11,775 bases of DNA from Promethearchaeota archaeon (GTDB lineage: Archaea; Asgardarchaeota; Lokiarchaeia; Sigynarchaeales; SOKP01), in the NCBI GenBank assembly GCA_016839425.1, contig JAEOUI010000021.1, positions 1 through 11,775 on the forward strand, written 5' to 3'. This document shows positions 2 through 11,320 of this stretch, piece by piece. The notes under the pieces are model-generated. The model was not told where the DNA came from. It did no database searches and saw only the letters and a program-made list of their open reading frames with translations. The stretch's first letter is position 1; each line of letters starts with the position of its first letter. The translations under genes and the position numbers were made by a program.

Positions 2-487
2 AAGAATGAACAGAAAAAGAAGAATATTGAGATTCAGAAGGTAGATTGTGAATATGACAAGAACATGATAAAGATTAAGATCGTAGGAACCCCAACTCGA
101 AAAGATAAACCTTCCTCCAGATTATCCGATGCGAAATTCGTCATAGGTGGAGGTCACGGTCTCGTTTCAAAAGAGAATTTTAATAAGCTTTTCGAGTTAG
201 CACGTTTAACTAATGGTCAAGTCGGAGGTACTCGACGTCCTATTCTTGACGATTGGATGCCGGAACACCTTCAAATTGGAATCAGTGGGGAAACCATTCA
301 ACCATCGCTTTACATCGCTTTTGGAATCTCGGGAGCAATTCAACACGTCGTGGGCATAAACGATTCACAAACGATCATTGCGATAAATAAGGACCCCAAT
401 GCTACTATTTTTGATTCGGCAGATTATTGCGTGGTGGCTGATGCAAACGAGATCCTTGAGGGCTTATTAGAACATTTTAAGGTTTAA
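2..487 (+). CDS. etfA: Electron transfer flavoprotein alpha subunit, C-terminal part (5' end outside window)
   Basis: This is the FAD-binding C-terminal domain of the ETF alpha subunit, which with ETF beta passes electrons between acyl-CoA dehydrogenase-type flavoenzymes and downstream carriers. The frame is open from base 2, so the gene begins before the window and the ATG at 65 is internal. Visible family motifs are VIGGGHGLVSKENF, the GGTRRPILDDWMP segment (family usual: GASR...), the flavin-contacting QIGISGETIQPSLYIAFG stretch, SGAIQH and the INKDPNATIFDSADY block, all in the expected order and spacing. The protein ends normally at TAA 485-487. Its neighbour converges from the minus strand 84 bp away. 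etfB would be expected upstream, outside the window. The family call is secure. Whether the ETF is bifurcating cannot be judged from this fragment. Confidence 0.94.
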   Translation, partial: KNEQKKKNIEIQKVDCEYDKNMIKIKIVGTPTRKDKPSSRLSDAKFVIGGGHGLVSKENFNKLFELARLTNGQVGGTRRPILDDWMPEHLQIGISGETIQPSLYIAFGISGAIQHVVGINDSQTIIAINKDPNATIFDSADYCVVADANEILEGLLEHFKV

Positions 488-2619: not shown

Positions 2620-4305
2620 TTAAGATGAATCCCATTTTCCATTGGCTCGAGCACTATTAATGTCATCAGTTAACCTTCGCTCCAAAATCACATAATCAGG
2701 TTTGTTATTTCGAGTTAGAGGAAAGTCTTCGAGAAATACGATTAATGAAGGGCGTTTATAAGATGCCATTTCTTTACAATGGTTGTTAATACTTTCTTCG
2801 GTTAAGATTGCGCCTTTCTTTACTTTTATATAAGCTACGACTGCTTCAGTAAAAATAGCGTGTTTGGCACCCAAAACTCCCACATACTCTACTTCAGGTA
2901 GAATTGAAACATAAGCTTCAATTTCAGGTTGGAAAACTCGATATCCCTTTGGATTTATCATGTATTTCTTCCTTCCAGCCAAATGAATGCCTTTTTCATC
3001 TTTAAATCCCATATCTCCAGTATAAAGAACCGAATCCTCTGAAAGAACTTCCTTTGTTGCTACATCGTAATTAAAATATCCAAGGAATGTTTGTGGTCCT
3101 TCGAAGCAAATCTCACCGATCTCACCATCCTCAAGAATATCTCCAGCCAAACCATCCTCTTTCATTTGAGCTCGGATCGTTGCAGGATAGATGGGAAAGG
3201 CAGTACCAAGACCATGAGAAATATCGTCAAATGTCGCTTTTTTAGGAGTGTAAGTACATAAACCCGAAGTTTCCGTAAGACCCAATCCCGTACCGATATT
3301 AGGTGCCATTTTTGCCAAGTTATTTAAGAATTCCTCATCAACAGATTGACCACTATAAATACCATGCTTGAGCGAACTCAAATCATAAGCATCGTAATGT
3401 TTTAAATTCCATTCCATAGAATACGAAGCTGGTATTTGCCCGAGACAAGTTACTCTGTGATTTTGAATCGCTGATAATGATCTTTCTGCGTCAAATCTCC
3501 CTAATACAATTGCAGTTCCTCCTTGAAAAAGAATGGTCATTAGTTGTTCTGTCAGACCACCAACAAAAGCTGGGGGCATGTTAACTAACATCCTATCCTC
3601 CCCAGTTATATTAAACGCACTTGATAAACACATATTTTGACAGGTGATCCCTCGACTTGTTAACATTGCGGGTTTTGGAAAAGCAGTGGTTCCCATTGTA
3701 AATAATAATAAAATGGGATCGGTTTCAAGAACCTTAGCACATTCTTTTTGATAACTTTCAAAATCGTGTTTTTTTTTCAATGCTCCTTCATATTCAATTT
3801 CTGCTTCGTTAAAAAGTTCATGGCCTTTTAGGATTCCTTCTCGGTATTTTTCATAAGAGGTGCCAAATTGTATCACATAATGCAACCAAGGGTAATTATT
3901 CCGAATTGCGTATCCAATCGTTCCAAAATTTCCAAATTTTGTCTTACCAAGATGACAATACATTTTAATATTGTCCCTTATTAAGGCTAAAGATATCATG
4001 ATTTCAGGGGGCTTTAAGCTCAAATCTAAAGGACACCACATAACTCCTAATTTCATGCACGCAAAACCCAGTATAAAATGTTCGTAAGAATTCGGAAGGC
4101 TTGTAACACAAATATCACCTTTTCTCAAATCCATGTTGAACAATTTATATGCCATAGCATTAATGGCTTTCAATAAATATTTATAGGAGACTTCCTTTCC
4201 GGTATCGCAAAAAAAGAGTGCCATATGATATGGACGAATACTTGCCCATTTTTCGACGACACCAATGAGAGTGTGCGGATGTTTTTCGAATTCTTCTAAT
4301 GACAT
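2620..4305 (-). CDS. Acyl-CoA synthetase-like adenylate-forming enzyme (AMP-binding family)
   Basis: This 561-residue protein has the length and motif order of class I adenylate-forming enzymes, which activate a carboxylate with ATP to an acyl-AMP and usually transfer it to CoA. The phosphate-binding loop is TMGTTAFPKP (203-212), followed by the GLGLTETSG motif (340-348), YTGD (428-431), the hinge region GRKKYMINPKGYRVFQPEIE (444-463) and a C-terminal PLTRNNKPD segment whose Lys535 matches the catalytic lysine of the small domain. The P-loop departs from the family usual TSGTTGxPKG: Met, Ala and Pro replace Ser, Gly and Gly. The lysine of PK and the threonines are kept. The substrate cannot be read from the sequence; medium- or long-chain fatty acids would suit the nearby ETF. 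The gene stands alone, with 376 nt upstream before hdrA and 224 nt downstream. Confidence 0.9.
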   Translation of the reverse strand: MSLEEFEKHPHTLIGVVEKWASIRPYHMALFFCDTGKEVSYKYLLKAINAMAYKLFNMDLRKGDICVTSLPNSYEHFILGFACMKLGVMWCPLDLSLKPPEIMISLALIRDNIKMYCHLGKTKFGNFGTIGYAIRNNYPWLHYVIQFGTSYEKYREGILKGHELFNEAEIEYEGALKKKHDFESYQKECAKVLETDPILLLFTMGTTAFPKPAMLTSRGITCQNMCLSSAFNITGEDRMLVNMPPAFVGGLTEQLMTILFQGGTAIVLGRFDAERSLSAIQNHRVTCLGQIPASYSMEWNLKHYDAYDLSSLKHGIYSGQSVDEEFLNNLAKMAPNIGTGLGLTETSGLCTYTPKKATFDDISHGLGTAFPIYPATIRAQMKEDGLAGDILEDGEIGEICFEGPQTFLGYFNYDVATKEVLSEDSVLYTGDMGFKDEKGIHLAGRKKYMINPKGYRVFQPEIEAYVSILPEVEYVGVLGAKHAIFTEAVVAYIKVKKGAILTEESINNHCKEMASYKRPSLIVFLEDFPLTRNNKPDYVILERRLTDDINSARANGKWDSS

Positions 4306-4312
4306 TTTTCTT

Positions 4313-4326
4313 CACAAATCTTTGTG
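4313..4326. promoter_or_regulatory. 14-bp palindrome just upstream of the acyl-CoA synthetase start
   Basis: CACAAA-TC-TTTGTG has perfect 6-bp arms around a 2-bp centre. It sits 8-21 bp before ATG 4305 and includes the GTGA that would act as ribosome-binding site. An ATTAAAAC stretch directly upstream (about 4327-4334) could be a TATA box. The symmetry suggests a dimeric regulator site between TATA box and start codon. It is short enough to be chance in AT-rich DNA. The rest of the 4306-4531 gap is AT-rich with no gene that I can see. Confidence 0.3.
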
Positions 4327-4531
4327 TTTTAATATGTTACAACGATTATTCTTATTAAAAATTGCTAAATAATTATCAACATACTGTTTTGACAATAAAT
4401 ATTATCATTCTTCTAGGCTTGGACAATTTTAATTATTCTTCTTAATTTTACCTTAACAGATTAGGTGATTTTTCTTTATATTATAAGGTATAACTATTTT
4501 TTCATTTGATATACCACATTTTTAAAAAAAT

Positions 4532-4603
4532 AAACCCGATCCCTTGCGTGGGCGAGTCTACGAACGACTATCGTTTTTTCGTTCGAATCATTCTATCGGG
4601 TTT
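4532..4603 (-). promoter_or_regulatory. SECIS-like element in the 3' UTR of hdrA (selenocysteine insertion RNA)
   Basis: On the hdrA transcript this begins 78 nt after the stop codon. A perfect 9-bp basal stem pairs AAACCCGAU (4603-4595) with AUCGGGUUU (4540-4532). Above it, UGAU (4590-4587) faces AGAC (4559-4556), giving tandem sheared G-A/A-G pairs as in the eukaryotic SECIS core (UGAN/NGAN, kink-turn-like). A U-U pair and a 7-bp helix follow, CGAACGA (4585-4579) with UCGUUCG (4567-4561). The 11-nt apical loop AAAAACGAUAG starts with the A run expected of the conserved AA. The 3' side of the basal part carries an extra small CCC/GGG hairpin (about 4541-4553), an asymmetry compared with simple SECIS stems. 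It would recruit the SECIS-binding machinery to decode UGA as selenocysteine. The U-rich stretch that follows means it could also act in transcription termination. Confidence 0.8.
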
Positions 4604-4681
4604 TAGTGTTGATTGGTTGAATGAGGACAAATATATAAAAAAAACAAACAAACAAATGGTAACCATTGCCTTTTTAGCAAA

Positions 4682-6622
4682 TTAGCTTAATATCGCATCG
4701 ATTTGTTTTTCGTACTGAGACTCTTGATAGTATTTCAATGTGATTGCTTCGGATGGGCAATTAGCCAAGCAAGTACCGCAGCCCCTACAGAGAATTTCGT
4801 TTACTTCGAGACCGTTTTTAGTCGTTTTTATAGCATTATATGGACAATTTAAAGCGCAGAGTCCACATTTGGCACAAGAATTCTTATTTATATAACCTCT
4901 TATCAAAAGTATTTCATAAGTATCCTTATGTAAAATGCTTGTTAAAGAAGATGCTGCCGCCCTCCCTTGTGTAATTGCGTCTGGAATTGTCTTGGGTCCT
5001 TGAGATGCTCCCGCTATGCTAATACCTGGGATTTTCGTATCTATCAAGTTTAATCGGGAGTGTGCTTCCTTGAAGAAACCATCCCTGCTTACTTCTAAGC
5101 CAAGCATTCTTTCGATTTTTTTTGCTGATTTCGAAGGGATAGATGCTGAAGAAAGAACAATGAGATCAAACTCCATTTCCAAGAATCTATCCATTCCAAA
5201 GGCTTCAATCTGTACAATTAGATCTTTTGTCTTTGGATCTTCTTTTATTTTTCCCACATGACCTCGAACAAAAACTATGCCACTATCTCTTGCCATACGA
5301 TAGTATTCTTCGTAATCTTTTCCTGCGCATCTCATATCAATAAAACTTACAACAATTTCCGTGTCGGGATATTCTGATTTTATTAATTTTGAGTTTTTAA
5401 TTGATAGATTACAACAAACCACGCTACAATAAAAATGTGTTTTTTTATCCCTCGAACCAGCGCAATTTACGAATAATATTTTTTTCGGGCGCTTTGCATC
5501 AGACGGTCTAACAAGATGTCCTTTTGTTGGACCATTTGGGGCTAATATTCTTTCGAGCTCGAGTTGCGTGATGATATTGCGATATGTACCTCTTCCGTAT
5601 TCCTTACCTTTATGAACTTCTAGTCCTGTTGCAACAACTATCGAACCTACCGTAAGATTCTGGATTTCATCTTTTTGATTGAAGTCAATAGCGTTTAATT
5701 CGCAGACGTCCTCACAAATCCCACATTTAATACATCGATTCATATCAATTTGCGCAATTGAGGGAACCGCTTGGGCAAAGTATGTATAAATGGCTTTTCG
5801 TGAGTTTAAATTCTCGTTAAATTCGTCAAATCCATACGCGGGACATGCCTCAACGCACGCTCCGCACCCGTTGCAATCTTCGGTAACATATCTTGCCTTT
5901 TTCCGGAGTTTTACCTTGAAATTTCCAATAAATCCAGAAATATCTTCGATGCTTGTATATGTGTATAAATGTACATTTGGAATGCTTGCGACTTTAAGCA
6001 TGACGGGACCTAAAATTCAAATACTGCAATCGTCGGTAGGAAAGGTTCTATCAAGCTTTGCCATTATTCCCCCAATACTGGGTCTTTCTTCCACGACATA
6101 GGTTTCGTATCCTTGTTCTGTCAAATCAATAGCAGCCGAAAGTCCTGCCACACCAGCACCTATTACAAGAACTTTTTTATCCAAATCAACGCTTTTTACA
6201 TCAATCTTCTCAAGGTCTACGGCCCGTGCGACTGAAGCTTTGATAAGGTCCTTTGCTACATTGAGAGCACCCTCTTTGTCTCCCCTATGAACGAAGGAGG
6301 AATGCTCTCTAATATTGACAAACTCTAAATAAGAGTGATCAATTCCCGTATCGCTCAATATCTTTTTAAATACTGGTTCGTGGGTTTTTGGTGTTCAAGC
6401 AGCAACTACCAAGCGATTAGCTTCCATCGTTGCCATATTTTCTTGAATAAAAGTTGATCCCGCAGTGGTACAAAGGCTTATGTAATTATCGCAACCAACC
6501 ACTCCAGGCAATTTTTTTGAATATTCAGTTAACGCCGTGCAATCTATAGTTTCGGCAATGTTCAGTCCTCACTGACAAATAGCTACAAATATTCTGCTTA
6601 TTTCTCCTGTATCTAAAACCAT
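4682..6622 (-). CDS. hdrA: HdrA, heterodisulfide reductase-like flavoprotein subunit with three predicted selenocysteines
   Basis: HdrA is the FAD and iron-sulfur subunit of heterodisulfide reductase complexes and performs flavin-based electron bifurcation or confurcation in the cytoplasm. The 646-codon reading frame from ATG 6622 has in-frame UGA at 6571-6569, 6397-6395 and 6019-6017 (residues 18, 76, 202). They fall in FVAICQ-U-GLNIA, VVAA-U-TPKTHEP and DDCSI-U-ILGP, where homologues have conserved Cys. The FAD-binding GAGVAG (155-160) comes next. Cluster motifs are CNGCGACVEAC (250-260), CIKCGICEDVC (297-307), CAKCGLCALNC (583-593) and CRGCGTCLANC (612-622). GSRDKK and CSVVCC of the central FAD domain are also present. 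A GTTGAT ribosome-binding site (6634-6629) precedes ATG. Length equals normal HdrA only if all UGAs are read. A naive caller yields 4682-6001 plus 6017-6358 and loses the N-terminus. No HdrB, HdrC or hydrogenase genes adjoin. Confidence 0.93.
6017..6019 (-). other. UGA codon read as selenocysteine 202 of HdrA
   Basis: The codon lies in DDCSI-U-ILGP; homologues read DCSICIL[TA]P. HdrA of some methanogens (Methanocaldococcus type) is a known selenoprotein, and I recall its Sec at this position. Cys199 stays Cys, giving C-x-x-U. Confidence 0.9.
6395..6397 (-). other. UGA codon read as selenocysteine 76 of HdrA
   Basis: The codon lies in VVAA-U-TPKTHEP. HdrA homologues read VVAAC[ST]PRxHEP here, so the UGA replaces a conserved Cys. 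The downstream frame continues without a gap. Confidence 0.87.
6569..6571 (-). other. UGA codon read as selenocysteine 18 of HdrA
   Basis: The codon lies in CQ-U-G, matching the C-x-C-G motif at the HdrA N-terminus (commonly CHCG). The first Cys (16) remains Cys, giving a C-x-U pair. Confidence 0.85.
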
Positions 6623-6922: not shown

Positions 6923-7924
6923 CTACAGTTTTTTTACGATTAGTTCTGCCATCCTATTAGAAAAGCCCCATTCATTATCGTACCAGCTTAATATGAACGC
7001 CTCGTCGTTAATTACTTTTGTCCAAATGCTCGAAAACACGGAACTATGTGGATCTCCGACGATATCGCTACTAACAATAGGGTCGTCGTTATATGCTAAA
7101 ATTCCTTTTAATGGACCTTCTGCTGCGGCCTTCATTTTTGCGTTTATTTCGTCAGCTGAAGCAGGTTTTTCAAGGATTGCTTTTAAATCTACAACGCTAC
7201 CATCGATAGTTGGAACTCTCATAGCAATACCGTCCAATTTTCCTTTAAGATCCGGGTAAATCTCGCCGATGGCCTTTGCAGCGCCAGTAGATGTTGGGAT
7301 CATGTTCATGGCGGCTGCCCTACCTCGAATCATTTTCGACGCGTCTCCCGCACGAGCGATGTCCACATTCGATTGGTCGTTTGTATAAGAATGAATCGTG
7401 GTCATAAGTCCATACTTTATGTTATAATTCTCGTGTAATACCTTTACGACTGGAGCCAAACAGTTCGTCGTGCACGAAGCATTCGATATGATCTTGTGGT
7501 CAGGAGTAATTTTATCATCGTTGCATCCTAACACAACCGTGATGTAGGGATCTGTTGCTGGTGCGCTGATCAAAACTCTCTTCGCTCCCGCATCGAGGTG
7601 TTTGGATGCTTTATCTCTTGCCACGAACAATCCGGTAGATTCTACCGCCACATCAATCTCGTTTTTTGAATGCGGTAGGTTTCCAGGGTCTCTTTCCGCC
7701 GTGATTGGAATTTCTTTCCCATCGACTACCAAGGCACCATCCTTAGCTTGAACATTACCCTTGAATCTCCCAAATACAGTGTCGTATCTTAGGACATAAG
7801 ACAAGTATTTGGGTTCAAAAAGGTCGTTAATGGAAACAATTTCAATTTCGGGATTACCCCAAGCGGCTCTGAAGAATAACCTTCCAATTCTACCAAACCC
7901 GTTGATTGCTACTTTCTTTACCAT
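6923..7924 (-). CDS. gap: Type I glyceraldehyde-3-phosphate dehydrogenase (bacterial/eukaryotic type, NAD-dependent)
   Basis: This enzyme interconverts glyceraldehyde-3-phosphate and 1,3-bisphosphoglycerate in glycolysis and gluconeogenesis. At 333 residues it has full family length. The Rossmann motif GFGRIG is at 9-14, and Asp34 in SINDL fits NAD over NADP. Catalytic Cys151 sits in SNASCTTNCLAP, with His178 in TTIHSYT. The substrate-binding RGRAAAMNMIPTSTGAAKA stretch (200-218) and the C-terminal WYDNEWGFSNRM are intact. Most archaea use the unrelated-sequence type II GAPDH, so this type I gene hints at acquisition from bacteria, though type I also occurs in some other archaea. ATG 7924 is preceded by a GTGA-type site. 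A 23-bp inverted repeat and TATA-like box lie upstream and an oligo-U tract follows, so it is probably transcribed alone. Confidence 0.97.
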   Translation of the reverse strand: MVKKVAINGFGRIGRLFFRAAWGNPEIEIVSINDLFEPKYLSYVLRYDTVFGRFKGNVQAKDGALVVDGKEIPITAERDPGNLPHSKNEIDVAVESTGLFVARDKASKHLDAGAKRVLISAPATDPYITVVLGCNDDKITPDHKIISNASCTTNCLAPVVKVLHENYNIKYGLMTTIHSYTNDQSNVDIARAGDASKMIRGRAAAMNMIPTSTGAAKAIGEIYPDLKGKLDGIAMRVPTIDGSVVDLKAILEKPASADEINAKMKAAAEGPLKGILAYNDDPIVSSDIVGDPHSSVFSSIWTKVINDEAFILSWYDNEWGFSNRMAELIVKKL

Positions 7925-8007: not shown

Positions 8008-8134
8008 CTTTTGAACACTAAATAGATATAGCTTATATATATATTTATGGAGAACATTAACGAATTTCGACAAAAATTTAAAAATTAATTTGACTATATG
8101 ATAGATCAATTCGTTTATCACGGGTTTGAAATTC

Positions 8135-8860
8135 ATGGTGAAAAAAGGAATTTTTGTATTACTTGTTATAGTGGCTTTTGTTGGAGGAGGTGTTTTAGGC
8201 GGATTTTTAGGTGCTACATTTTTTAGTGCATCACCAACAGAATCTCCTATCGAACCCTATTCTCATACCATTCTTATTGACGGAATCAATGATTTTTATT
8301 TGGATAGAGAACTATTTAACACCTCGAGTTCCGCAAGCGGATTTTACGGCTATATTTCTTGGGATTCAAATTATTTTTATGTTGGACTCAACGACTCAAA
8401 TGATATAAGTGGAATAAATCCCGATATATATCTCTTGATTTATTTCGGAAATGGAAATCTAGGAACGACTATTGGAAAGCTTTATAATACGCAACAACCA
8501 AACTTGGCGTTTAATACATCGCACCACTTTTGGTGGAGATCGGATGTTCTAACATGTGGTATGGACGCTTGGAACGGTACGAATTGGGCCGATACAGATC
8601 TAAACTTTACAGGTGAATGGAGTCGAGCTGGTGCTTATTTTGAATCTCGATTTCTTTTGGAAAATCTAGGGTCACCATCTTCTTTAAAATTACATATAAG
8701 CATGATATATACAGGGGGGGGTACTCCAAGTACCTGGTGCTCAATACCGCATAATTCCGTTGATGCGGGCGGAGCCAATGATCCTGATTACATATCATAT
8801 TACGATTTCGATCTCGAAGACACAACCGCTCCTAATACCTACATACCATTATATCCTTAA
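8135..8860 (+). CDS. Membrane-anchored extracytoplasmic beta-rich protein (DOMON/CBM9-like fold suspected), copy 1
   Basis: The function is not recognised. The 241-residue protein starts MVKKG followed by a glycine-rich hydrophobic segment (about 5-30), a signal anchor with the C-terminal ~210 residues outside the cell. The outer domain opens with HTILIDGINDF and has a GYISWDSNYFYVGLN strand pair. This IDG...D...W-D-x-x-x-(F/I)-Y-(V/I)-G pattern recalls CBM9/DOMON-like beta sandwiches that bind sugars or haem; that is a resemblance only. There are several NxS/T sequons (such as NTS, NGT, NFT) and two cysteines that could form a disulfide. I chose ATG 8135 over the in-frame TTG 8126 because it directly precedes the Lys-Lys plus hydrophobic start. 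The gene 123 bp downstream is a paralogue with the same layout. Confidence 0.75.
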   Translation: MVKKGIFVLLVIVAFVGGGVLGGFLGATFFSASPTESPIEPYSHTILIDGINDFYLDRELFNTSSSASGFYGYISWDSNYFYVGLNDSNDISGINPDIYLLIYFGNGNLGTTIGKLYNTQQPNLAFNTSHHFWWRSDVLTCGMDAWNGTNWADTDLNFTGEWSRAGAYFESRFLLENLGSPSSLKLHISMIYTGGGTPSTWCSIPHNSVDAGGANDPDYISYYDFDLEDTTAPNTYIPLYP

Positions 8861-8880
8861 TTTTATTTTTTGTTTTTTTT
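8861..8880 (+). terminator. Oligo-U terminator after surface protein copy 1
   Basis: The stop codon is followed at once by TTTTATTTTTTG and eight more T, a strong archaeal-type U-tract terminator. It suggests the two paralogues are separate transcripts. Confidence 0.6.
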
Positions 8881-8915
8881 AAAAACCTGAAATTCCCACG
8901 AAAAAAAGGAAAAGC

Positions 8916-8978
8916 TTTTAAATAGTAGTTCACAGTTATCTTCAATCCAATTTCAACATTTTTGTTGTGCAAGTGATC
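8916..8978 (+). promoter_or_regulatory. Promoter and ribosome-binding site of surface protein copy 2
   Basis: TTTTAAAT at 8916-8923 is preceded by an A/G-rich stretch resembling a BRE and predicts a start near 8945. GTGATC at 8973-8978 lies 5 nt before ATG 8984 and supports that start. Together with the upstream U tract, this indicates the gene has its own promoter. Confidence 0.5.
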
Positions 8979-8983
8979 AAAAA

Positions 8984-9721
8984 ATGAAAATTAATAAGGA
9001 AAATTTGAAAATAAATAAAGAAAGCATAATAAAACATAAAAAACCGATTATAGCCGGAGCAGGAATAGTCGTCATTGTGATCGTGGTCGCAAGCGTTACC
9101 GGATTTCTCGTTGCGAATCCAAGCGTTCTTAATCCCGGTGGAGAAGAAAATCCATACGCTCATACGATAACAATAGACGGCGTGAACGACTTTACAGCAA
9201 GCACCGAAGAATTTAGCACATCTAATTCAGATTATAAAGCATATATTACATGGGACGCTAACAATATATACATTGGAATGAACGGATCAATGGGATCTTC
9301 TACTCGTCGTTTATTTGTATATTTTGGTGACGGTAGTGGGATAGGCGAAAGTTCTGGGGAACAATACGATGGTCCTGAGCCTATCTTGCCTTTTAACGCC
9401 TCATATTGCTTTCAATGGAGTTTATATTACGATTCAGTGAATTTATTTAAAGGAAACGGAACGGGTTGGACGGAAATTACCCCAAGTTTTAGTGGTGTAT
9501 GGAATAGGACAAATAGCTTTTTTGAATGCAAAATTCCAAAAGCAGACATTGGTATTACATCACGTCTCCAAGTACATATATCTATAAAACAATCTTCTTC
9601 AGGTAATATTATTGTAGCACTACCTTTCAACTCAATAGATAGTGATGATTTCGTTTCATATTATGATTTTAATATAGATTCTGAAGCCGTACCATCAAGT
9701 TACGCGACTATAAGTATCTAA
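8984..9721 (+). CDS. Membrane-anchored extracytoplasmic beta-rich protein (DOMON/CBM9-like fold suspected), copy 2
   Basis: This 245-residue paralogue of the preceding gene has an unknown function. The N-terminus is Lys-rich and contains a small internal repeat (KINKEN, KINKES). It is followed by a transmembrane segment at about 21-44, so the protein is a type II-like anchor with the bulk outside. The domain starts HTITIDGVNDF and keeps AYITWDANNIYIGMN, a LFVYFGDG strand, the NGTGW motif, LQVHISI and the closing FVSYYDFNID, each with a counterpart in copy 1 in the same order. Sequons (NGS, NAS, NGT, NRT) suggest a glycosylated surface protein. The two cysteines lie at positions roughly equivalent neither in sequence nor spacing to copy 1. 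The copies are well diverged, so the duplication is old. Confidence 0.75.
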   Translation: MKINKENLKINKESIIKHKKPIIAGAGIVVIVIVVASVTGFLVANPSVLNPGGEENPYAHTITIDGVNDFTASTEEFSTSNSDYKAYITWDANNIYIGMNGSMGSSTRRLFVYFGDGSGIGESSGEQYDGPEPILPFNASYCFQWSLYYDSVNLFKGNGTGWTEITPSFSGVWNRTNSFFECKIPKADIGITSRLQVHISIKQSSSGNIIVALPFNSIDSDDFVSYYDFNIDSEAVPSSYATISI

Positions 9722-9768: not shown

Positions 9769-10536
9769 TTATTCTTCTTCGGTTTCTACTCGTCCTAACA
9801 ATCTAAGGACCGAGTCAGCTAGCTTGTTCTGGCTTTTACTCTTGATACCTTTTATCTTTCCTTCCTTCCCAAGAACTCTGAGCATAATGCCGTTCCACAC
9901 GGATCCAGGCTCTCCCTTTACATTCTTAAAGCGATCCCTGTATATCTTGACATCTATGTTATCGTATTTTTTTGCTGCGTCGCTACATTTAAAGCATAAG
10001 ATGCACTTGTCTTTATCCACCGAAATGGCTTTACCGTCCCTTTTCATTGCGTCGACGGCACATTCATCTACGAACGCATCAATTAATTTTCCATCTTTTT
10101 CATTACAAGTTATTGTAATGCTCCCTTCAACAACTTTTCGAACTTTTTGCCCGTTTTCGAGCGTTCTCACTTCCTCTTCGAACTCTGGTAGAGATCCGTT
10201 CTCTACCAACAGGAGCTTGTTTTCCCCGTTAATAAGTAGTTCCAAGGTATATCCTGGACAAATCCAAGTGCAACACCCGCACCAAATGCACTTTTCGGGA
10301 TCTACTACGGTTTTCTGGTCTGAAGGGATTTTCATTTCTTCGGGTGTGCCAATCGCCGTTCTCTTGAGCACCTCTTCGTAGATGGACACGGTAACGGGAC
10401 ACACGCGGTGGCAGAAACCACATTCCACGCACTTACTATCGTCGTACTTGAGTACCATATCGTGATTAAGCATGCGATACTCGTAGTGAGTGATTGTTTC
10501 GCTCGCCTTTAAAGCTTTTTTTGCTGGTAAGCTCAT
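9769..10536 (-). CDS. Polyferredoxin-like 4Fe-4S protein
   Basis: This 255-residue cytoplasmic iron-sulfur electron carrier or oxidoreductase subunit has two complete cluster motifs, CVECGFCHRVC (36-46) and CIWCGCCTWIC (83-93). The second contains an additional Cys88. A third ferredoxin-like region has CAVDAM (159-164) and CILCFKC (178-184). It lacks the usual distal Cys-Pro after the CxxCxxC, so the third cluster would need Cys159, Cys144 or a partner protein as ligand. A basic tail without cysteines follows and ends in a Glu run. Proteins of this kind serve formylmethanofuran dehydrogenase, hydrogenase or HdrA-type complexes; nothing in the immediate context decides between these. ATG 10536 is the first residue of a typical start. 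The gene stands alone, converging with the surface protein gene. Confidence 0.82.
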   Translation of the reverse strand: MSLPAKKALKASETITHYEYRMLNHDMVLKYDDSKCVECGFCHRVCPVTVSIYEEVLKRTAIGTPEEMKIPSDQKTVVDPEKCIWCGCCTWICPGYTLELLINGENKLLLVENGSLPEFEEEVRTLENGQKVRKVVEGSITITCNEKDGKLIDAFVDECAVDAMKRDGKAISVDKDKCILCFKCSDAAKKYDNIDVKIYRDRFKNVKGEPGSVWNGIMLRVLGKEGKIKGIKSKSQNKLADSVLRLLGRVETEEE

Positions 10537-10729: not shown

Positions 10730-11320
10730 TCATACCATATAATGCAAGTAGGACACATCGATTTTTGCGTTAATGTATTTAATGACTTTCATGATTTCGC
10801 TAAATGTTTTTTCGTCCCCAAAGTGAAGGAGCAAGATATTCTCGTCCATCATTCCCTCAATCATTCCTATTATTGTTTCGGCGATATAAACGGGTCGAAC
10901 CTTTTGTTCGAAGAAATCCCTGTTTTCTTCGAGTTCTTTTTGATATAATTCGATCCAAAATTTGAGATACCTACCTCTTGCGCTATTTTTATCTTCCATT
11001 AGGGCTAATTCTTCCTTGTCTTGCGTAAGATGCTTTTCTATCTTTCGTAACTTTTCTAAAAAGAATGTTTTTGTTTCTTCGGGGATTTTAATCTGATAAT
11101 AAGGAACCCCAAGGGATCCTAATAAACCTGGGAGCGGGGAATTTCTAAAGGATATGAAAAGGTCGTCAGGAACATCAATTGTCGCAAAATTAATTGTTTT
11201 ATCGCTAAAATACTTGAGAATGTCTTTAATTTCCTTGATCTTTGGACTCTCGTTAATATAATTCACGAGATATATCGCCATGGTCTTTCTAACGGTTTTA
11301 TTCCTGTTTAGTACCTCCAA
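10730..11320 (-). CDS. Uncharacterised protein, mixed alpha/beta, cytoplasmic
   Basis: I do not recognise a family. The 196-residue protein has no signal peptide, membrane segment or cysteines. Residues about 14-60 look alpha/beta (MAIYLVNYI..., FATIDVPDD), followed by a PLPGLLGSLGVPYYQI stretch. A long charged helical region spans about 80-145. A hydrophobic ENILLLHFG strand leads to a C-terminal helix and ends in VSYLHYMV. The start is uncertain. TTG 11320 has a good GAGGTG site 8 nt upstream, but a TATATAAA box at 11337-11344 would start transcription near 11315. That would leave the first ATG, 11281, as start (183 residues). The gap to the ferredoxin gene is 193 nt, so co-transcription in this direction is possible but not evident. 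Confidence 0.7.
   Translation of the reverse strand: MEVLNRNKTVRKTMAIYLVNYINESPKIKEIKDILKYFSDKTINFATIDVPDDLFISFRNSPLPGLLGSLGVPYYQIKIPEETKTFFLEKLRKIEKHLTQDKEELALMEDKNSARGRYLKFWIELYQKELEENRDFFEQKVRPVYIAETIIGMIEGMMDENILLLHFGDEKTFSEIMKVIKYINAKIDVSYLHYMV

Follow-up and report, generated by a model that had tools for sequence, protein, structure and literature searches.

The window, the 11,775-nucleotide stretch of DNA analyzed here, carries an hdrA gene whose 646-amino-acid frame contains exactly three TGA codons, at residues 18, 76, and 202. These UGAs are very probably recoded as selenocysteine (Sec), and the gene probably encodes a functional, intact selenoprotein HdrA of a Lokiarchaeon (Promethearchaeota). 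From the pattern of conservation described below, we favor, with somewhat less assurance, a model in which the Sec sites ligate the dimer-bridging N-terminal [4Fe-4S] cluster, such that three of its four ligands would be Sec in this protein.

4682..6622, minus strand: hdrA with three Sec codons (U18, U76, U202), 646 aa with TGA read as Sec, stop TAA
6571-6569, minus strand: UGA codon 18 in the context CQUGLN, residue 13 of 5ODC in the phmmer alignment
6397-6395, minus strand: UGA codon 76 in the context AAUTPK, residue 71 of 5ODC in the phmmer alignment
6019-6017, minus strand: UGA codon 202 in the context DDCSIUILG, residue 197 of 5ODC in the phmmer alignment

The read-through product matches HdrA in a single stretch, from residue 9 or 10 to 645, in both NCBIfam and PDB searches. 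E-values reach 2.7e-218 for NCBIfam HdrA models, with bit scores under the curated cut-offs (726.9 versus 1100 for HdrA2 and 567 versus 1400 for HdrA), and 1.2e-192 for PDB HdrA chains. The domain order is kept, comprising an N-terminal Fe-S domain, a thioredoxin-reductase-like FAD domain, and inserted and C-terminal ferredoxin domains, and the fold matches 5odc, 8rvy, and 7bkb over the full length. The window hdrA has C or U at all 26 near-invariant cluster Cys columns, and three random codons of the 646 would all land on its 29 Cys/Sec codons with a probability of ∼8e-5. These single-stretch profile and structure matches bear out the preliminary description of one continuous HdrA interrupted by UGA only at 18, 76, and 202; its placement of the three sites at conserved cysteines also holds, the columns being Cys or Sec only among 152 listed HdrA rows.

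A close relative from a Lokiarchaeota genome (L001; L037 is the same gene) is 93% identical to the window HdrA and keeps the same three TGAs, which are fixed between the two genes while adjacent third positions vary. Dividing the comparison at the TGAs gives four segments, with dN/dS between 0.03 and 0.09 and dS between 0.58 and 1.29 throughout.

Codons 1-17, window versus L001: dN 0.052, dS 0.68
Codons 19-75, window versus L001: dN 0.068, dS 0.73
Codons 77-201, window versus L001: dN 0.024, dS 0.58
Codons 203-646, window versus L001: dN 0.036, dS 1.29

These ratios indicate that purifying selection acts on the segments after each TGA. Together with the shared UGAs, they agree with the earlier statement that random decay does not account for the three codons.

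SECIS element and Sec machinery

A candidate SECIS element lies 90 nt past the hdrA stop.

4557..4591, minus strand: SECIS core with AUGA, a 9-position upper stem, an 11-nt apical loop starting from AAAAA, and a closing GA
4533..4602, minus strand: whole SECIS-like hairpin with the lower stem AACCCGAU/AUCGGGUU, kept in L001

A covariance model, R1, was trained on 57 distinct elements with nine pairs and an 11-nt loop, excluding those of the window and L037. Built in this way without the window gene, it scores the window element at 31.4 bits (E 2.8e-5) and the relative's element at 35.1 bits; nothing else in the window matches, even with E allowed to rise to 1. We also scanned 1.5 kb downstream of each hdrA for a pattern of an AUGA core, an 8-15-pair stem, an A-rich apical loop, and GA/AA. 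Among the matches listed, elements scoring at least 16 occur in 80 of 152 hdrA rows versus 2 of 456 controls, the controls being first-order Markov resamplings rather than exact dinucleotide shuffles. All 80 fall within the 141 Sec-bearing rows, the other 61 having no score-16 element within the scan, versus none in the 11 Sec-less rows listed, four of which (L130, L133, L144, and L179) have less than 1.5 kb of downstream sequence. Outside its training set, R1 matches 33 of 79 listed rows at E up to 0.05 and none of the other 46; on the 11 Sec-less rows it has no match at this threshold and one at E 0.88.

Covariation across the 57 elements is consistent with a conserved hairpin. Paired cells make up 93.6%, versus 51.9% in shuffles and 40-45% with the partner slid, a figure that leans toward structure because the alignment was preselected by a scan tolerating at most two mismatches. 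Cells changed on both sides number 207 versus 58.8 in shuffles, and the covariation score is 1.056 versus 0.227; none of 500 shuffles reaches either value. The count of pairs with a both-side change (9/9) is uninformative, being reached by 345 of 500 shuffles. Thermodynamic signals are weak: the hairpin has a fold z-score against shuffles of −1.58 in the window and −2.47 in L001, and the 185-nt 3′ region (z −0.31) has no convincing excess stability. Rfam at the gathering threshold gave no match anywhere in the window. A first scan of 430 nt, from 30 nt before the hdrA end, placed 36 of 149 rows above the 95% shuffle level versus 19 of 447 shuffles. This signal was weak because hdrA and the SECIS are usually separated by an mvhD-like gene, and the 1.5-kb extension resolved it. 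We assign the element to hdrA because the AMP-binding gene on its other side is flipped in the relative and the element is still behind hdrA. The terminal TGA of some hdrA genes (L128, L159, L002/L113, and perhaps L116) apparently lies inside the SECIS AUGA motif.

The Sec machinery was sought in G001, the genome of the 93%-identical relative. SepSecS is found there at 469.9 bits (cut-off 224.85); among 14 control genomes this family matched in one, M. jannaschii. Among solved structures the G001 SelB is closest to archaeal SelB 4ac9, the match spanning residues 9-468 of 473; the TIGR00475 score of the G001 protein lies under the cut-off (235.9 versus 242.25). SelD is itself Sec-containing (HGUSC), and a PSTK-like gene scores 128 bits, below the family cut-off of 290.5. 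The G001 tRNA-Sec, identified by eye against the relatives' copies, adjoins SepSecS and has a TCA anticodon and an apparent T-arm intron, its 5′ end being lost at the contig end. With G001 included, SepSecS is above cut-off in 53 of 58 relatives and tRNA-Sec in 26 of 58. For the latter, only above-cut-off matches to RF01852 were counted, because the family also matches all 14 control genomes, in five of them over the cut-off. Two RF01852 matches were rejected as tRNA-Sec, one in G001 that ARAGORN calls tRNA-Ser(GCT) and one in G003 (L035) with, by eye, TAA at the anticodon.

The machinery that the preliminary description had asked for is found in the relative's genome, with the reservation that PSTK and SelB score below their family cut-offs. 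Its Sec reading gains support from UGAs at Cys columns, purifying selection, a 3′UTR SECIS recognized out of sample, this machinery, and the continued use of UGA as an ordinary stop. Within the scope of these tests, with the machinery sought in the 93%-identical relative, nothing that the preliminary description listed as refuting was encountered.

Sec sites across HdrA relatives

The census covers 152 hdrA rows among the matches listed, drawn from G001, its relatives, the window, and L002. They represent 151 distinct genes, L002 and L113 being identical, and the sample is biased toward relatives of the window gene. Within columns 2-646, 344 of 345 TGAs in the listed rows fall on the 26 near-invariant Cys columns, the single exception being L180 at column 165, and 336 of the 345 fall on four columns.

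Column 202: TGA in 141 of 152 listed rows
Column 18: TGA in 124 of 152 listed rows
Column 76: TGA in 49 of 152 listed rows
Column 51: TGA in 22 of 152 listed rows
Column 300 (ferredoxin domain): Sec in four rows (L165, L168, L170, L175), beyond the N-terminal sites
Column 303 (ferredoxin domain): Sec in two rows (L148, L150), beyond the N-terminal sites
Column 593 (ferredoxin domain): Sec in one row (L056), beyond the N-terminal sites
Column 615 (ferredoxin domain): Sec in one row (L161), beyond the N-terminal sites

Columns 300, 303, 593, and 615 are conserved Cys positions of either the inserted or the C-terminal ferredoxin domain. The counts leave out 59 TGAs before column 2 or in insertion columns, all N-terminal of column 18, which arose because frames had been extended upstream by as many as 30 codons; between residues 1 and 18, insertion columns account for four of the 59. 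Among the matches listed, any residue found at columns 18, 51, 76, and 202 is Cys or Sec, and Cys16 and Cys199 are never Sec.

The four columns occur in the following combinations among the matches listed.

18+202: 75 rows
18+76+202, the set of the window: 32 rows
18+51+76+202, all four: 11 rows
No Sec at the four columns: 11 rows, one clade
202 alone: 9 rows
18+51+202: 6 rows
76+202: 3 rows
51+76+202: 3 rows
51+202: 2 rows

Every listed Sec-bearing row thus has Sec at 202, and totals per HdrA reach four in 14 of the 152 listed rows and five in two. Within the group the triple arrangement is nothing out of the ordinary (32 of the 152 listed rows), and the window gene is one of many such cases. 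A FastTree tree requires at least 19 Cys/Sec changes at column 76, 8 at 51, 8 at 18, and 1 at 202. The window gene and L037 form a supported pair with Sec at 18, 76, and 202 and no mvhD, and the neighboring clade mostly has 18+202 with mvhD.

We compared 30 further loci (L003-L032), mostly non-Asgard. Columns 18, 51, and 76 are Cys in 28, 28, and 29 of these, respectively, and the remainder have no residue; in these loci, the alignment with homologues that the preliminary description had suggested returns Cys and no other residue at 18 and 76 wherever the position is present. Column 202 is Cys in 28, without a residue in one, and TGA in one, the HdrA match of L004 (Clostridia; 4001-5977; DCSAU), apparently a bacterial single-Sec HdrA. 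L029, in the same comparison, has three stops at non-Cys positions 133, 134, and 565.

Database entries of these proteins show traces of other decoding. All 22 database homologues aligned (P0002 and 21 others, of 120 listed) have Trp at columns 18 and 202, and some also at 51, 76, or 303; they are apparently selenoproteins mis-decoded with TGA as Trp. P0001, P0026, P0027, P0063, and P0111 start just past residue 202, truncated by standard gene calling. Multi-Sec recoding explains why such genes look truncated or mis-decoded in databases.

Candidate cluster ligands and alternative readings

In the HdrA structure discussed by Chadwick et al. (2022; PMC9012536), the N-terminal cluster is held by Cys residues of the N-terminal domain and by Cys197 of the other subunit. 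We take this structure to be 5ODC, though the organism is named differently there. In the phmmer alignment, window residues 18, 51, 76, and 202 correspond to 5ODC residues 13, 46, 71, and 197, the 5ODC numbering here being that of the window minus 5. We infer that this cluster takes its four ligands from the four Sec-prone columns. There are four candidate Cys residues (16, 18, 51, and 76) for the three N-terminal-domain places, and 18, 51, and 76 are chosen over 16 because of the Sec pattern itself. If the 26 columns were alike, the four most Sec-rich would all fall within 16, 18, 51, 76, and 202 with a chance of ∼3e-4, an estimate computed after the pattern was seen.

In a predicted model, three successive β strands of the N-terminal domain (11-16, 41-47, and 70-75) end at or shortly before 16/18, 51, and 76, respectively. 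Loops at the ends of successive strands are usually brought together in this way. Of the 23 sequences behind the model, 22 have Trp at two Sec columns or more. The mean pLDDT is 75, confidence is low in the parts 191-202, 20-23, and 78-80, and only the strand order was used.

These observations suggest a mechanism in which a single 3′UTR SECIS, of the Lokiarchaeal eukaryote-like type I, would direct SelB and Sec-tRNA to all three UGAs, which sit 2.0, 1.8, and 1.4 kb upstream of it. The predicted product is HdrA at full length, bearing Sec at positions 18, 76, and 202; Sec18 and Sec76 would lie in the N-terminal domain alongside Cys51, and Sec202, by analogy with the solved homologue, would be contributed to the partner subunit's N-terminal cluster. 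Selenolate ligation is the most likely role because Sec18 and Sec76 lie by Cys51 and Sec202 is the residue given to the partner's cluster. Selenolates on the electron path of a flavin-based bifurcating enzyme might then tune potential, electron-transfer rate, or oxidant tolerance. A 2022 review (PMC9499178) likewise describes Sec in heterodisulfide reductases as ligating Fe-S clusters. The route served is described differently in the relevant passages of three sources: Chadwick et al. (2022; PMC9012536) place the N-terminal HdrA cluster on the ferredoxin branch, a review (PMC6019823) gives HA3, HA5, and HA6 as the low-potential route, and a structural paper (PMC12350162) gives HA3 and HA5 as that route and HA4 as the other; cluster labels and electron routes differ between them.

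The fuller claim, that Lokiarchaeal HdrA contains a natural poly-selenolate [4Fe-4S] cluster at its dimer interface, with Sec as three of four ligands here and four of four in 11 of the 152 listed rows, and that repeated Cys/Sec swaps at the ligands have produced a natural variant series in a bifurcating enzyme, might equally prove right or wrong.

Rather doubtful, in our view, is that Sec is inserted but does not ligate a cluster, serving instead as redox-active selenols or a selenium store, or reflecting neutral Cys/Sec drift once a SECIS is present. Drift requires no special function, and the changes are indeed frequent (at least 19 at column 76 and at least 8 each at 18 and 51); repeated switching at 76 could mean weak selection there. 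The MvhD-like genes at the same loci are also Sec-rich (114 and 107 of 118 at two columns, among the matches listed). Such a reading does not, however, predict the confinement of Sec: among the matches listed, 336 of 345 counted sites belong to the four columns attributed to a single cluster, the equally conserved and nearby Cys16 and Cys199 are never Sec, only 8 cases are spread over the 20 near-invariant Cys columns outside 16, 18, 51, 76, 199, and 202, and Sec at 202 is shared by all Sec-bearing rows and can be accounted for by a single change on the tree. We consider it improbable that the UGAs act mainly as a selenium-dependent switch, with truncation at codon 18 and substitution by a Sec-free paralogue under low selenium and complete HdrA under ample selenium. 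Methanococcus maripaludis does exchange Sec and Cys isoforms of HdrA with selenium supply, as reported in the relevant text of PMC11097638, and some related genomes do carry HdrA paralogues free of Sec (one clade, 11 of 152 rows among the matches listed), but a switch leaves the choice of Cys-to-Sec sites unexplained; it is also compatible with selenolate ligation rather than exclusive of it.

Readings that dispense with Sec fare worse. Genome-wide reassignment of UGA, whether to Cys or, on the pattern of code 4, to Trp, would suit the Trp at columns 18 and 202 in the 22 aligned database homologues (of 120 listed), yet it is very improbable given that UGA is a normal stop in the window's 196-aa gene, in the ETF-domain gene of L238, and at the end of 9 of 152 hdrA rows among the matches listed. 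An internal TGA occurs in only one above-cut-off SepSecS match, that of G017; moreover, the TGA columns are elsewhere Cys and not Trp, and a SECIS and tRNA-Sec are present. That the gene is decayed, or that the UGAs are sequencing or assembly errors, is scarcely credible: the stops themselves are the sole point in favor, and against it stand the identical UGAs in a second genome, the conserved SECIS, and dN/dS of 0.03-0.09 per segment. Decay and sequencing error are both very unlikely because the segments are under purifying selection and the TGAs are fixed amid changing third positions. Sec recoding is well supported, and selenolate ligation of the N-terminal cluster is its favored role.

Gene neighborhood and known systems

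The hdrA gene lies among the following neighbors.

2620..4302, minus strand: AMP-binding (acyl-CoA synthetase-like) enzyme
6923..7924, minus strand: GAPDH-like protein, recognized by eye
9769..10536, minus strand: multi-[4Fe-4S] ferredoxin-like protein of 255 aa, also present in the relative
2..487, plus strand: C-terminal part of ETF alpha
10730-11320, minus strand: conserved 196-aa protein ending at TGA as an ordinary stop, counterpart L238:4928-5518
8126-8860 and 8870-9721, plus strand: two adjacent ORFs with similar sequence (PY.HTI.IDG.NDF) and an N-terminal hydrophobic stretch

The last two are apparently paralogous secreted or anchored proteins, and the true start of the 8870-9721 frame is probably further in. 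Pfam at 1e-5 gave no match for ORF 8126-8860 or for the relative's copy of the 196-aa protein. On the G001 contig L238, the order begins with a two-Sec HdrA, MvhD (FlpD), and an FrhB-like Fe-S protein; further on come the ferredoxin-like and GAPDH-like proteins, the three-Sec HdrA, the AMP-binding enzyme, a HerA-like ATPase, and ETF alpha, followed by an ETF-domain (beta-like) protein and then an acyl-CoA-dehydrogenase-like protein. GAPDH and acyl-CoA dehydrogenase were annotated there by eye, and HerA, the AMP-binding enzyme, and ETF alpha by scanning the window copies. Between the two close relatives, the AMP-binding gene has switched orientation with respect to hdrA without moving (window 2620-4302; L238 12643-14337).

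The L238 MvhD (FlpD; 2356-2823), confirmed with Pfam, has Sec at CWKU and GUYP. By motif, an MvhD-like gene follows hdrA in 118 of 152 loci among the matches listed, with Sec at the CWKU column in 114 and the GUYP column in 107 of these 118; some of the 34 rows without one end at a contig edge. A six-frame search of the window, with motifs that we take to mark MvhD and HdrB (CCG), found no MvhD-like and no HdrB CCG-like motif. Since hdrA stands alone without the usual mvhD, electrons probably pass between the protein and either partners from other loci or its neighbors; of the latter, the ETF, acyl-CoA-synthetase-like, and ferredoxin-like proteins are tentative candidates. The neighborhood makes a link between fatty-acid-type substrates, ETF, and HdrA possible.

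Discussion of Sec mostly concerns catalysis, generally by one such residue per protein. Our literature search, which covered titles and the starts of abstracts, returned nothing on poly-Sec ligation of an Fe-S cluster. The 2016 study of Mariotti et al. is said to describe five Lokiarchaeal selenoprotein families, three with multiple Sec; the organism group and recoding system are the same, the phenomenon is probably the same, and a multi-Sec HdrA may well already be in print there. The new element would be the mapping of Sec onto the presumed ligands of one cluster. If it is correct, the paralogues form a natural substitution series, from zero to four of four selenolate ligands, and the window gene serves as a test case for a naturally occurring cluster bound chiefly through selenium. 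Selenolate ligands would also offer a way to ask why a cell puts selenium around an electron-transfer cluster, and the gene lends itself to asking how a single SECIS can act on several UGAs at distances of up to 2 kb.

Methanococcales are an established source of Sec-containing HdrA, which is also widespread among Asgard archaea (PMC11227280, PMC9723677, PMC11291895, PMC2933860, in the parts bearing on HdrA). A 2026 review (PMC13188914) describes most prokaryotic selenoprotein families as having one Sec and a small subset two or three, and notes several Sec for some FrhD/VhuD; its relevant text makes no such statement for HdrA. According to the relevant text of Huang et al. (2024; PMC11227280), which does not give the number of Sec per HdrA, Asgard HdrA is widespread in Lokiarchaeia and its element is type I eSECIS-like, with AUGA_GA and an A-rich apical loop, as here. 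The same text has hdrA and frhD always adjacent, a pattern to which the window hdrA, with its own SECIS and no mvhD-like gene, is an exception. The HdrAU of Methanococcales belongs to the same family and shares Sec at the residue-202 column (CxxU) and a SECIS in the 3′ region, but it is listed with one Sec motif, CxxU (PMC9312934, relevant part), whereas the window HdrA has two extra Sec residues, at 18 and 76, and a eukaryote-like SECIS. Among the solved complexes compared, HdrABC-MvhAGD (5ODC) and Elp-Hdr (8RVY), the 5ODC HdrA has Cys at all of positions 13, 46, 71, and 197, where the window protein has Sec, Cys, Sec, and Sec, respectively.
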